In this document: positions 792 through 5,209 of the stretch, one piece after another
Layout: each line of letters opens with the position of its first letter
How positions within the stretch are numbered: position 1 is the stretch's first letter
Assembly (NCBI GenBank): GCA_030620115.1
Contig: JAUXFG010000209.1
Span: 1 to 5,690 of the forward strand
Direction of reading: 5' to 3'
Origin: Candidatus Fermentibacterota bacterium
GTDB lineage: Bacteria > JAFGKV01
DNA length: 5,690 bases
Program-made: the position numbers and the translations under genes
Notes under the pieces: generated by a model
What the model was told of the DNA's origin: nothing
Database searches by the model: none
Seen by the model: the letters and a program-made list of their open reading frames with translations, nothing else

Positions 792-839
792 ATGAGACTC
801 CATAAGGAATTCATGAAATCACTCGGAGGTATGAGGTGA
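792..839 (+). other. Possible 15-codon leader ORF overlapping the PLP-gene start
   Basis: An ATG at 792 opens a 15-codon frame (MRLHKEFMKSLGGMR) whose TGA at 837-839 overlaps the GTG start of the next gene as GTGA. Internal ATGs at 813 and 831 share the same stop. The overlap would permit translational coupling. No good ribosome binding site stands at the right distance before 792, and a frame this short easily occurs by chance, so it is listed only as a possibility. Confidence 0.15.
825..829 (+). promoter_or_regulatory. Ribosome binding site that fixes the GTG start at 836
   Basis: GGAGG stands 6 bases before GTG at 836, an ideal spacing. The nearby ATG at 831 reads ATG-AGG-TGA and stops at once, and no in-frame ATG near the site competes, so the GTG is the best-supported start. 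Confidence 0.8.
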
Positions 840-2302
840 AAGAAGCAGAGAAGATACTGGAGAACACCATCAAACGCTGTCGGGAACGGGATATCATTCT
901 TCCCACGTATGAGGAGGTGGCGGATCCGGAGAAGATCCCGGGGAAGATCCGGGATGAGTTGAAGCAGATCGGTCTATGGGATCTGCACCCACGGAATCTT
1001 TTTCGGATCACTTGGAAGAATGAGCCGATAAGGTTCGGCGGTGGATTCGGCGGTGTGAACTACATGGAGATTCCTCCGGAATTGACCGGCGTAAAAGCGC
1101 GCATTCTTATGCTCGTCGGCAAGTATTTTCCCACGGGATCACACAAAGTGGGCGCGACCTTTGGTCCCCTGGCGGAGAAGCTCATCCGCGGTGTATTTGA
1201 TCCCACACGTCATAAAGCCCTCTGGCCTTCCACGGGGAACTACTGCCGTGGCGGCGCCTATGACTCGCACCTCTTGGCGTGCGAGTGCATTGCCGTACTT
1301 CCGGAAGAGATGTCGAGGGAACGATTCGAGTGGTTAGAGAAGGTCGGGGCCGAGATCCATGCCACGCCGGGGTGTGAGAGCAATGTCAAGGAGGTCTATG
1401 ACAAGACCAAGGAGCTCGTGGCGGAACGTCCCGACGAGATTGTGGTCTTGAATCAGTTTGATGAGATCGGGAATGCCATCTGGCACTATGTCTGCACCGG
1501 GCGGGCCATGGAGGAAGTATTCCACATGGAGCGCGAAGGCCAGGAGCAGCTCAGGGCCATCTTCCTGACGCAGGGTTCCGCAGGGACGTTGGGGAGCGCG
1601 GAGTACCTGCGCGAGAAGTTCCCGGGCATCAAGGTGGGTGCAGGAGAGGCGCGCCAATGTCCGACCCTTCTCTACAACGGGTATGGTGGGCATCGCATTG
1701 AAGGGATCGGTGATAAGCATGTCCCATGGATTCACAATTTGAAGAACATGGATATGGTGGCGGATATCGATGATGAGGACTGCATGCGGCTTGTTCGGCT
1801 CTTCAACGAGCCCGTGGGCAGGGAATATTTGAAAAAGCAGGGCGTTGCTCCCGAGATTGTCGACAGATTGGATCTCTTGGGGATCTCTTCCATCGCCAAT
1901 CTTTTAGGCAGTATCAAGATGGCCAAGTACTATGAAATGAACGAGAATTCCGTAGTGGTTACGTTGGCCACAGATTCCATGGAGTTGTACGAGTCGCGCT
2001 ATCAAGAGGCGCGCGAGAGGTTTGGCCCCTATACGGAGCTCCGCGCCGCGGTTGATTTCGAGAAGTGTCTTCTGGGACAGACGATTGATTGGATGCTGGA
2101 ACTCTCCTATTGGGATAAGAAACGGATGCATAACCTCAAGTACTTTACGTGGGTGGAGCAGCAAGGCAAGACAGTGGAGGAACTTGACGCACAATGGTAT
2201 GATGATAACTACTGGAGAACGCAGTTCCATTCCTATGAGAAATGGGACGAGCTGATTCGCGAATTCAATGAAAGGACGGGGCTGCTCAAGCATTCCCGGT
2301 GA
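836..2302 (+). CDS. Fold-type II PLP-dependent enzyme, cysteine-synthase-related
   Basis: The 488-residue product belongs to the tryptophan-synthase-beta/cysteine-synthase superfamily of pyridoxal-phosphate enzymes. Seen in the sequence: PTGSHKVG at 99-106, where K104 should form the Schiff base with PLP; STGNY at 132-136, the substrate-carboxylate Asn loop; QGSAGTLGS at 246-254 with YLRE just after, the glycine-rich phosphate-binding loop; GISSIAN at 349-355 and VVVTLATDS at 373-381, matching the GISSGA and pyridine-nitrogen-contacting end of CysK. It is longer than ordinary cysteine synthases (about 310 residues): about 80 extra residues precede the core, and an aromatic-rich tail follows (about 428-470, with HNLKYFTWVEQQG and WYDDNYW). 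I recall that tail from proteins annotated only as PLP-dependent beta-subunit-like, so it probably marks a subfamily. No signal peptide is seen, so it should be cytoplasmic. The reaction is unknown: beta-elimination or beta-replacement on a serine- or cysteine-type substrate is a family inference. The gene ends 28 bp before the tldD-like gene and is probably co-transcribed. Confidence 0.9.
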   Translation: MKEAEKILENTIKRCRERDIILPTYEEVADPEKIPGKIRDELKQIGLWDLHPRNLFRITWKNEPIRFGGGFGGVNYMEIPPELTGVKARILMLVGKYFPTGSHKVGATFGPLAEKLIRGVFDPTRHKALWPSTGNYCRGGAYDSHLLACECIAVLPEEMSRERFEWLEKVGAEIHATPGCESNVKEVYDKTKELVAERPDEIVVLNQFDEIGNAIWHYVCTGRAMEEVFHMEREGQEQLRAIFLTQGSAGTLGSAEYLREKFPGIKVGAGEARQCPTLLYNGYGGHRIEGIGDKHVPWIHNLKNMDMVADIDDEDCMRLVRLFNEPVGREYLKKQGVAPEIVDRLDLLGISSIANLLGSIKMAKYYEMNENSVVVTLATDSMELYESRYQEARERFGPYTELRAAVDFEKCLLGQTIDWMLELSYWDKKRMHNLKYFTWVEQQGKTVEELDAQWYDDNYWRTQFHSYEKWDELIREFNERTGLLKHSR

Positions 2303-2320
2303 ATAACGTGTTCCAGACTA

Positions 2321-2325
2321 GGAGG
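2321..2325 (+). promoter_or_regulatory. Ribosome binding site for the tldD-like gene
   Basis: GGAGG lies 5 bases before ATG at 2331 and supports that start over the in-frame ATGs at 2337 and 2358. All three would keep the twin-arginine motif, so the export prediction does not depend on this choice. Confidence 0.75.
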
Positions 2326-2330
2326 GCGAG

Positions 2331-3860
2331 ATGCCCATGATACCTTTCAAGAGCGACATGTCGCGTCGATCATTTCTCAAAGGCGCCTGCGCCTCGGTGG
2401 CCGTGCTCTCGATACCGAGGCTGGGGCATGGATTGCGCCACCCCTCCGCTCCTCCTGACTTCGTGGATTTCCCGTCACCCGAAGTCATGAGCCGAGTCCT
2501 GGCAACGGCGCTCAACCGTGGCGGCGACTATGCGGATCTTTTCTTGGAATCTACGATACGGACCAACATCTCCATTGCCGCGGGAGAGATCAGATCCATG
2601 GAATACGGAGTCATCCAAGGTGGAGGGATCCGGATAATCCAGGGTGAGAAGACAGGATACGCCTATGCCGAATCGCTGGCTTCTCATCTTTTGAACGACG
2701 CGGCAAAGACGGCCGCCGCCATGGCATGTGGGGGAAAAACGGCTCCTTTTTCCCTGAGCGAGATATCGTATCCGCGGTATGTGCTGGCCCGAGAAACCAT
2801 CGAGGATGTTGGTGTGGCGGAGAGAGTGGCATTCCTGGAGAGAATCGATCGAGCAGCGCGCGCGGTGAATCCCGCGGTGAAGCAGGTCACAATCGAGTAC
2901 ATGGATGAGATCAAGACCTATGTGGTGGCACACTCGGAGGGTGTGTTTGCGCGCGATCGACTCCCTGTGATCTATCTTCGCGTCACAGTCAACGCATCAA
3001 AGGATAAGAAGCGTGCGGAAGGGATGTTCCGGACTTCGGGTCGTCAGGGGATGGAGCTGCTGGCCGGAGACATGCCCGAGCAGGCGGGCCGCGAGGCGGC
3101 TGAACAGGCGCTGCGCATGCTGGACGCGGTTCCCGCTCCCACAGGGGAGCTGCCGGTGGTGATTGCTGCCGGAGGAGGCGTCATGTTCCATGAAGCGGTG
3201 GGGCACGGCCTGGAGGCCGATGGCGTCATCCGCGACGCATCGGTATTCGCCGGGCGCGTAGGAAAACGTGTTGCCACTGAGCTCGTGACGCTCTATGACG
3301 ATTCAACGATGCCAGGCAAGCGTGGGAGCTTCAACGTGGACGACGAGGGTACTCCTGCTTCCAGAACATTGCTCATCGAGAATGGAGTACTCGTAGGCTA
3401 TATGCAGGATCGTCGCACAGCGCATGTCATGAGCGCAGATCTTACCGCCAACGGCCGTCGCCAGTCGTTCCGTTATCCTGCCATGGTTCGGATGACCAAT
3501 ACCAACCTCGCGCCGGGAGATGAGACTCCGGAAGACATCATCAAGGCAACCAACCGCGGGATCTTTGCCGCGCATTTTGGCGGCGGGGAGGTCGATATCG
3601 GCAGCGGCCAGTTCACCTTTGGCCTGCGGGAGGCGTATCTCATCGAGCAGGGGAAGATCACTGCGCCCATCAAGGGCGCCAACCTGGTGGGTTCGGGGCT
3701 CGAAGTGCTGGCTCGCATCGACCGGATTGGGGCTGATTTCGGATCATGGCCGGGGACATGCGGCAAGTCAGGCCAGTGGGTACCGGTCACCAGTGGGTGC
3801 CCCACCCTGAGGATCTCACGAATCACCGTAGGCGGCACTGCCGGGGGAGGAGGATCATGA
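2331..3860 (+). CDS. tldD: TldD-type metalloprotease subunit with a twin-arginine export signal
   Basis: The 509-residue product is the catalytic TldD half of the TldD/TldE (PmbA) metalloprotease, which in known systems trims peptides such as microcin B17 precursor and CcdA. The zinc motif HEAVGH is at 287-292 (H287, E288, H292), inside GGGVMFHEAVGHGLE. The third family ligand, a C-terminal cysteine, is C477 in GTCGKSGQ, followed by PVxxGxPTLRI and ITVGGT typical of the TldD end. Catalytic residues therefore look complete. Unusually, the N-terminus has SRRSFLKG at 11-18, a twin-arginine motif, then a short hydrophobic stretch (19-29), so the protein is predicted to go out through Tat, folded and probably with its metal. 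Without the leader the length (about 470) fits the family. The cleavage site is unclear; it may be an uncleaved anchor. The C-terminal GGGGS tail is encoded by bases that double as the ribosome binding site of the next gene. The stop overlaps the pmbA-like start. Confidence 0.93.
   Translation: MPMIPFKSDMSRRSFLKGACASVAVLSIPRLGHGLRHPSAPPDFVDFPSPEVMSRVLATALNRGGDYADLFLESTIRTNISIAAGEIRSMEYGVIQGGGIRIIQGEKTGYAYAESLASHLLNDAAKTAAAMACGGKTAPFSLSEISYPRYVLARETIEDVGVAERVAFLERIDRAARAVNPAVKQVTIEYMDEIKTYVVAHSEGVFARDRLPVIYLRVTVNASKDKKRAEGMFRTSGRQGMELLAGDMPEQAGREAAEQALRMLDAVPAPTGELPVVIAAGGGVMFHEAVGHGLEADGVIRDASVFAGRVGKRVATELVTLYDDSTMPGKRGSFNVDDEGTPASRTLLIENGVLVGYMQDRRTAHVMSADLTANGRRQSFRYPAMVRMTNTNLAPGDETPEDIIKATNRGIFAAHFGGGEVDIGSGQFTFGLREAYLIEQGKITAPIKGANLVGSGLEVLARIDRIGADFGSWPGTCGKSGQWVPVTSGCPTLRISRITVGGTAGGGGS
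3846..3853 (+). promoter_or_regulatory. Ribosome binding site inside the tldD-like 3' end
   Basis: GGAGGAGG lies within the last codons of the tldD-like gene, with GGAGG at 3846-3850 placed 6 bases before ATG 3857. It decides the start of the next gene: the frame is open back to an ATG at 3746, but that start lacks such a site and would add 37 residues unlike the family, lying deep inside the upstream gene. Confidence 0.8.
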
Positions 3861-5209
3861 GCATATCACAAGACCCCCATGGTGTAGCGAGAAGAGCAGT
3901 CGAACTCGCGCTGCAGGCAGGTGCAGAGAAAGCTGATGCCTATGTGCAGTTTGCCTCTGAACTGAATCTCGAGGTTCGGCGGGGGGAGATGGAGAACCTA
4001 CGGCGCGCCATGAGCCGCGGACTTGGCCTTCGTGTAAGCCGTAACCGGCGTATGACCCTGGTCCACACCACGGATTTGGGAGAGCGATCATTGGCTCGGC
4101 TCGCCGCCAGGGCGGTGGAAATGACCGGCTCGCTCAAAGAGCAACGAGACGACATGCTGTTGGCGGCGCCAGGGGCCATTACCACGTTGACACATCCGGA
4201 TCCCGAGCTGCACCGTGAGACCGTGGACACAAAGGTGGCTCGGATGTGCGAGGTCGAGTCGGCCATGACGGAAGTGAAGGGCGTTGCCAGGGCGGTGAGC
4301 GTCTCGTGGACCGAGGTCGATGGGGTGATCGCATTGGCGAACTCCAGGGGGCACGGCCTCAGTGAGCCATTCTGCCACATGACCCTTGAGGCTGAATGTT
4401 TAGCTGAGCAAGGCGACCAGAGTTATACCGGCTCCCGTCATGTACGGGTGCCGGCTCGCCGGTACCTGCCGGAGCCGGCGCGGATTGGGCGGGAGGCTGC
4501 GGAACGAGCGGTGGGGCTTCTTGGCGCTCGGCCCATTCCTTCGACCAAGGCGCCGGTGATCTTCACGCCGGATACCGGATGGACGCTGCTGGTCTATCTG
4601 GCCTTGGCGCTACGGGGAGACCACGTAGTTCATGAGCGCTCGTACCTTGCCGAACGCTTGGGGCAAACCATTGCCGCAGACGAGATGACGATCCATGACG
4701 ATCCATTGTTGGAGCAGGGGCCATCCCGGCGTTCTTTTGATGCGGAAGGAAGCGCTGCGAAGAAGAGCGCCCTTGTCGAGCGTGGCGTGATGTCGGCCTA
4801 TCTCACTGATCTGGCCAGCGCCGCCCGGCTCGAACTTCCTCCGGGGGGCAATGCGGTTCGAGATGGCTATGATCAACGCGTCTCCATTGGCGCCGCCAAC
4901 CTGTACATGGAGGCCGGGAGGCATACTCCTCAGGAGATCATCGCGCAGACCGAGCGGGGGCTTCTCGTGAATCTCGTCTCAGGATGGTGGGTCGGCTTGT
5001 CACCGGCCACCGATACGTTTTCTTCCGCAGCCATGGGATTTTGGATCGAGAATGGCAAGCTGGCACATCCGGTCCGCGGCGTGACCATCGGCGGCAATCT
5101 CCGCGATATGCTCATGACGGTGGACATGATCGGAAATGATCTCTCCTTTCTCGAGCGAACCAGTACCCCGACCTTCCGAGTCTCGGAGATGGCCATCTCG
5201 GGAATTTAG
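3857..5209 (+). CDS. pmbA: PmbA/TldE-type non-catalytic partner of the TldD protease
   Basis: Read from ATG 3857, the product has 450 residues, the usual length of PmbA (TldE). It shares the TldD/PmbA fold: an N-terminal half with LALQAGAEKADAYVQF (17-32) and EVRRGEMENL (39-48), and a C-terminal half ending TIGGNLRDML (410-419), IGNDLSFLE and a PTFRVSEMAISG tail. An ungapped comparison with the neighbouring TldD-like protein places LVYLAL (245-250) where that protein has HEAVGH, and no cysteine matches its C477, so this subunit cannot bind zinc in the same way. In characterised systems TldD is active only as a heterodimer with TldE, and the ATGA overlap (3857-3860) fits tightly matched synthesis of both subunits. 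It has no signal peptide of its own, although its partner carries a Tat signal, so it either stays inside or is carried out as a folded complex. The ATG at 3746 is rejected as start. Confidence 0.92.
   Translation: MSISQDPHGVARRAVELALQAGAEKADAYVQFASELNLEVRRGEMENLRRAMSRGLGLRVSRNRRMTLVHTTDLGERSLARLAARAVEMTGSLKEQRDDMLLAAPGAITTLTHPDPELHRETVDTKVARMCEVESAMTEVKGVARAVSVSWTEVDGVIALANSRGHGLSEPFCHMTLEAECLAEQGDQSYTGSRHVRVPARRYLPEPARIGREAAERAVGLLGARPIPSTKAPVIFTPDTGWTLLVYLALALRGDHVVHERSYLAERLGQTIAADEMTIHDDPLLEQGPSRRSFDAEGSAAKKSALVERGVMSAYLTDLASAARLELPPGGNAVRDGYDQRVSIGAANLYMEAGRHTPQEIIAQTERGLLVNLVSGWWVGLSPATDTFSSAAMGFWIENGKLAHPVRGVTIGGNLRDMLMTVDMIGNDLSFLERTSTPTFRVSEMAISGI
5186..5199. repeat. Palindrome GAGATGGCCATCTC at the end of the pmbA-like gene
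   Basis: This 14-bp perfect palindrome ends 8 bases before the stop codon. An alternative pairing joins CCGAG at 5176-5180 with CTCGG at 5197-5201 around it, so the 3' end of the message can form a sizeable stem. Only TTT within AATTTAG follows, so it is a poor intrinsic terminator, and coding constraint may explain it. A transcript-end or stability role is possible but unproven. Confidence 0.3.

Follow-up and report, generated by a model that had tools for sequence, protein, structure and literature searches.

A single Tat-type leader on a TldD/PmbA pair suggests a hitchhiking heterodimeric peptidase outside the cytoplasm

The two-subunit peptidase TldD/TldE has so far been known as a cytoplasmic enzyme. 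In the stretch of DNA analysed here (5,690 nucleotides, hereafter the window), we found a TldD/TldE-type pair in which only TldD carries a twin-arginine (RR) leader, and this peptidase is quite probably moved out of the cytoplasm as a heterodimer, with its PmbA (TldE-type) subunit as a Tat hitchhiker. Comparison among homologues gives good support for export of TldD, co-export of PmbA can be strongly inferred, and translocation itself and activity outside the cell are what we infer. Somewhat less firmly, we consider it likely that a widely distributed branch of the TldD/TldE family is extracytoplasmic, metallated inside and then exported as a Tat-hitchhiking heterodimer, sometimes lipid-anchored, with the trait gained or lost several times and present in two TldD classes.

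The window is a single complete contig of a 4.1-Mb draft genome (296 contigs); among named relatives, MAGs of Candidatus Eisenbacteria and Krumholzibacteriota are nearest. The TldD N-terminus (MPMIPFKSDMSRRSFLKGACASVAVLSIPRLGHG) lies downstream of a good ribosome-binding site (Table 1). The first-pass annotation had described an SRRSFLKG motif plus hydrophobic stretch on TldD, together with HEAVGH and C477, and a coupled PmbA without a signal, and both descriptions are borne out by the sequence. The ATGA overlap couples the translation of TldD and PmbA, and the PmbA N-terminus (MSISQDPHGVARRAVEL) has no hydrophobic stretch and no match to a TAT model. Upstream of the pair, the PLP-dependent (PALP) protein belongs to the cysteine synthase fold group and scores below every NCBIfam cut-off (best score cysK/M, about 101 bits versus about 350 needed); its gene ends 28 bases 5′ of TldD and was not seen at the other RR-TldDs listed. 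Short intergenic GATCGGAATCGGGATCG-like repeats are found 5′ of the PALP gene (575-605 and 685-705), and the PAS-domain protein cut by the contig end is probably a sensor.

Table 1 Features of the window, with positions counted from its first nucleotide.
Feature	Position	Strand	Basis
PLP-dependent enzyme	836-2302	+	Pfam
Shine-Dalgarno AGGAGG, 5′ of TldD	2320-2325	+	Sequence
Metalloprotease subunit of TldD type, bearing the RR leader, 509 aa	2331-3860	+	Pfam, NCBIfam, PDB, fold
N-terminal leader of TldD, residues 1-43	2331-2459	+	AlphaFold; E. coli TldD lacks it
Twin-arginine motif SRRSFLKG, residues 11-18 (S11-R12-R13)	2361-2384	+	Sequence; R12, R13 and F15 identical in all 12 aligned TldDs
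Uncharged h-region GACASVAVLSIP, residues 18-29	2382-2417	+	12 residues; mean Kyte-Doolittle 1.75
HEAVGH metal-binding motif, residues 287-292	3189-3206	+	Aligned with E. coli HEAVGH; ligand role PMC5810440
C477 of TldD, within GTCGK	3759-3761	+	Equivalent to E. coli TldD Cys454, third metal ligand (PMC5810440)
GGAGGAGG, ribosome-binding site of PmbA, within TldD 3′ end	3846-3853	+	Sequence
ATGA, PmbA start/TldD stop overlap	3857-3860	+	Sequence
PmbA/TldE-type non-catalytic subunit without signal, 450 aa	3857-5209	+	Pfam/NCBIfam; no HExxxH; model
PAS protein, 5′ part only (contig ends)	5297-5690	+	Pfam

Both subunits belong to the PmbA/TldD family by Pfam and NCBIfam, and each contains the three PmbA_TldD Pfam domains (PF01523, PF19290 and PF19289 in TldD, which also matched NCBIfam TldD). 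Profile scores assign the window TldD to the TldD family, outside the E. coli equivalog, with 391.4 bits against NF008006 (E. coli type) where the cut-off is 513. It matches PDB 5nj5_A (E 1.6e-104), with the E. coli alignment beginning at residue 56, and the AlphaFold core superposes on the TldD of 5nj5 and 5njc with TM of 0.84-0.90. The HExxxH motif and the distal Cys are found on TldD only, and PmbA partners have no HExxxH. The PmbA model is folded from its first residues (pLDDT 95) and matches TldE/PmbA structures 3qtd and 5nj5_B (TM 0.87-0.88). In the TldD model, nearly all of residues 1-43 have pLDDT <50, with one helix at 12-26 over the h-region, and the folded core starts at about residue 45-50. 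Since the leader is poorly ordered and the core has the E. coli TldD fold, the models present the leader as an appendage outside the enzyme fold, not as part of the enzyme.

The window TldD has an S/T-R-R-x-F-L-K motif followed by a moderately hydrophobic h-region. Its leader is a weak example of its type, and the h-region is short (12 residues, then R30). The TAT models matched TldD at the expected site and not PmbA, at scores just below their cut-offs (TIGR01409 in NCBIfam, 16.3 bits versus 16.7, E 0.009; PF10518 in Pfam, 16.5 bits versus 22.7). The evidence for the leader comes from comparison with homologues. TIGR01409 (TAT_signal_seq) matches nine of the 12 TldDs of the alignment set (counted at E up to 0.5, not at the curated cut-off) and none of the 16 PmbAs. 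Among these 12 TldDs (the window and 11 relatives), R12, R13 and F15 are the sole invariant residues in a hypervariable first 55, and the RR leader is kept in all six of the closest homologues (58-65% identical). A rule combining the TatP motif (PMC6085387) with an uncharged hydrophobic stretch was passed by 20/20 RR leaders, by 0/46 PmbA N-termini and by a mean of 0.9% of shuffled leaders. The earlier expectations of a recognisable Tat-type leader, conserved in close homologues, both held.

To survey the arrangement more widely, 73 distinct TldDs of the window class (class A) were collected from a domain-wide search of 386 genomes and from named loci, and 20 of them bear an RR leader; a PmbA adjoins all 20 downstream, and none of these PmbAs has a leader. 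Of 38 TldDs read in another phylum, 35 bear an RR leader (32 pass the rule, and L204 with INRRVFIHH, L230 with IDRRDFLKK and L233 with LNRRQFLQK, missed by the script's start or length test, were added), with 0/38 leaders on the partner PmbAs. This gives a class-A total of 55 RR-leader TldDs from at least 23 family-level groups. Phe occupies the Tat consensus position in all 55 leaders, where the rule permitted other residues, Ser/Thr precedes RR in 31 and Lys is at the K position in 25. A distant second class (class B), the type of the C97 pair in the window's own genome, has five RR-leader cases in three genomes with the same arrangement. The mapping of leaders against partners that the first-pass annotation had suggested thus returned, for both classes pooled, 60 RR-TldDs, 60 adjacent PmbAs and no PmbA leader, figures that count sequences and not independent events. 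On the TldD tree, the leader label needs eight changes, of which at least five are forced by well-supported branches, and the window TldD falls in an 11-member clade with the leader in all 11. PmbA linkage was 20/20 for RR-TldDs versus 26/49 for leaderless TldDs (raw p 5e-5), a contrast that loses significance when independent pairs of the tree are compared and is descriptive only. One genome (G204; L184, L185) has three class-B RR-TldD genes, each followed by a leaderless PmbA, and one PmbA partner of an RR-TldD (L102:2569-4479, minus strand) has a 637-aa open frame, which exceeds the usual length by nearly 190 residues.

A check of the genome for tatABC had been suggested, and tatC and tatA were found there. 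Across genomes, tatC is present in 19/20 with RR-TldDs versus 32/40 others, and the sole RR genome without it is a 2.2-Mb MAG of unstated completeness. None of the three observations named beforehand as counting against export turned up, and comparative sequence evidence supports export of the TldD/PmbA pair. The window's own genome has five TldD/PmbA pairs (the other four on contigs C97, C161, C212 and C232; L011-L014), with the leader on the window TldD only. No leader was seen on any PmbA of the TldD/PmbA proteins identified in this genome, and hence there was no candidate for a PmbA exported separately to complete TldD outside.

These observations bear on whether TldD could be exported alone, acting as a homodimer or pairing with a different protein, while PmbA remains in the cytoplasm, which we consider unlikely. 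Hu et al. 2012 reported that a Sulfolobus TldD homodimer is catalytically active (discussed in PMC5810440), and PmbA could serve the leaderless pairs of the same genome. However, PmbA adjoins the RR-TldD in 60/60 cases, mostly no more than about 60 nt away, the TldD/PmbA proteins identified in the window's own genome include no leader-bearing PmbA, and in E. coli both subunits are required, TldD being inactive without TldE and the metal being bound by TldD alone (PMC5810440). Hitchhiking is favoured over solo export because E. coli needs both halves and only TldD holds the metal, and because across the 60 RR-TldDs no neighbour was lost and no neighbour gained a leader.

Further evidence comes from the leader ends, where a lipobox-like Cys (motifs including LLSC, LSSC and LPGC) was found in 9/55 leaders versus 0.6 expected from shuffling, with eight of the nine related and thus representing few events. 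In these leaders (L210-L216, L220 and L128) the Cys lies about 25 residues past RR. As a lipobox is meaningful only after membrane crossing, this points to translocation, and lipobox-bearing RR-TldDs may be Tat-exported lipoproteins. It also argues against the complex being Tat- or membrane-targeted and then anchored by a leader that is not cleaved, perhaps facing the cytoplasm; this we regard as improbable, even though no clean AxA signal-peptidase site was found in the window leader and 5/55 leaders lack AxA-like and lipobox-like sites alike. AxA-like sites were not enriched (50 in the leader set versus 48 in shuffles) and are uninformative. Cys depletion or a clear composition shift was sought in RR-TldDs and their partners without a hit, and the composition thus carries no signature of an oxidising compartment. 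Least probable of all, and very much so, is that the RR-hydrophobic N-terminus is no targeting signal and reflects a misassigned start or chance. The window leader does score slightly below the formal Tat model cut-offs, but the invariance of R12, R13 and F15 within a hypervariable region and the universal Phe, together with the rarity of shuffles passing the rule, are at odds with chance, and a good ribosome-binding site lies 5′ of the upstream ATG, while the latest start ahead of the motif (M10) still retains RR.

Under the favoured hitchhiking model, TldD and PmbA would be translated together from their coupled genes, TldD would load its metal (HExxxH and Cys) inside the cell, and the two would close into a hollow heterodimer in the cytoplasm. 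The folded complex would then be exported by TatABC, with the TldD leader as its sole ticket and PmbA as the hitchhiker. Once outside, the complex could be released, held by its leader or, in lineages with a lipobox, lipid-anchored, and would trim unfolded peptides from their N-termini. The gene neighbourhood gave no clue to the substrate, as the RR loci listed (about half) have no flanking genes in common, and neither RiPP genes nor a conserved neighbour were recognised beside the RR pairs examined.

If true, this would give many uncultured bacteria a processive peptide-trimming protease in the periplasm or at the cell surface, go some way towards accounting for the five TldD/PmbA pairs of one genome, and provide a natural non-redox Tat hitchhiker cargo, a protease. 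The pattern of a putatively exported TldD/TldE is widespread, recurrent and directly testable. An exported TldD was sought in the open-access literature, and none was found; TldD/TldE and Tat hitchhiking are each known, and it is their combination that this literature did not contain. A Tat signal on such proteins may already be flagged in database annotation.

Compared with known systems, the window pair shares its fold with E. coli TldD/TldE (PmbA; microcin B17-processing; PDB 5nj5; PMC5810440), and likewise has HExxxH and Cys on one subunit and a non-catalytic second subunit. E. coli TldD has no signal, whereas the RR leader of the window TldD, about 45 residues long, lies beyond the fold. 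RiPP-processing TldD/TldE pairs (ammosamide and biphenomycin pathways) share the family with the window pair and serve in peptide trimming; they differ from the RR pairs examined, alongside which no RiPP genes were recognised. One-signal hitchhiker export is established for HybOC and PaoABC (PMC4273604), in which, like the window pair, one subunit bears the Tat signal, its partner is signal-less and the genes are adjacent. HybOC and PaoABC are redox enzymes, whereas the window pair would be a putatively co-exported protease shell.
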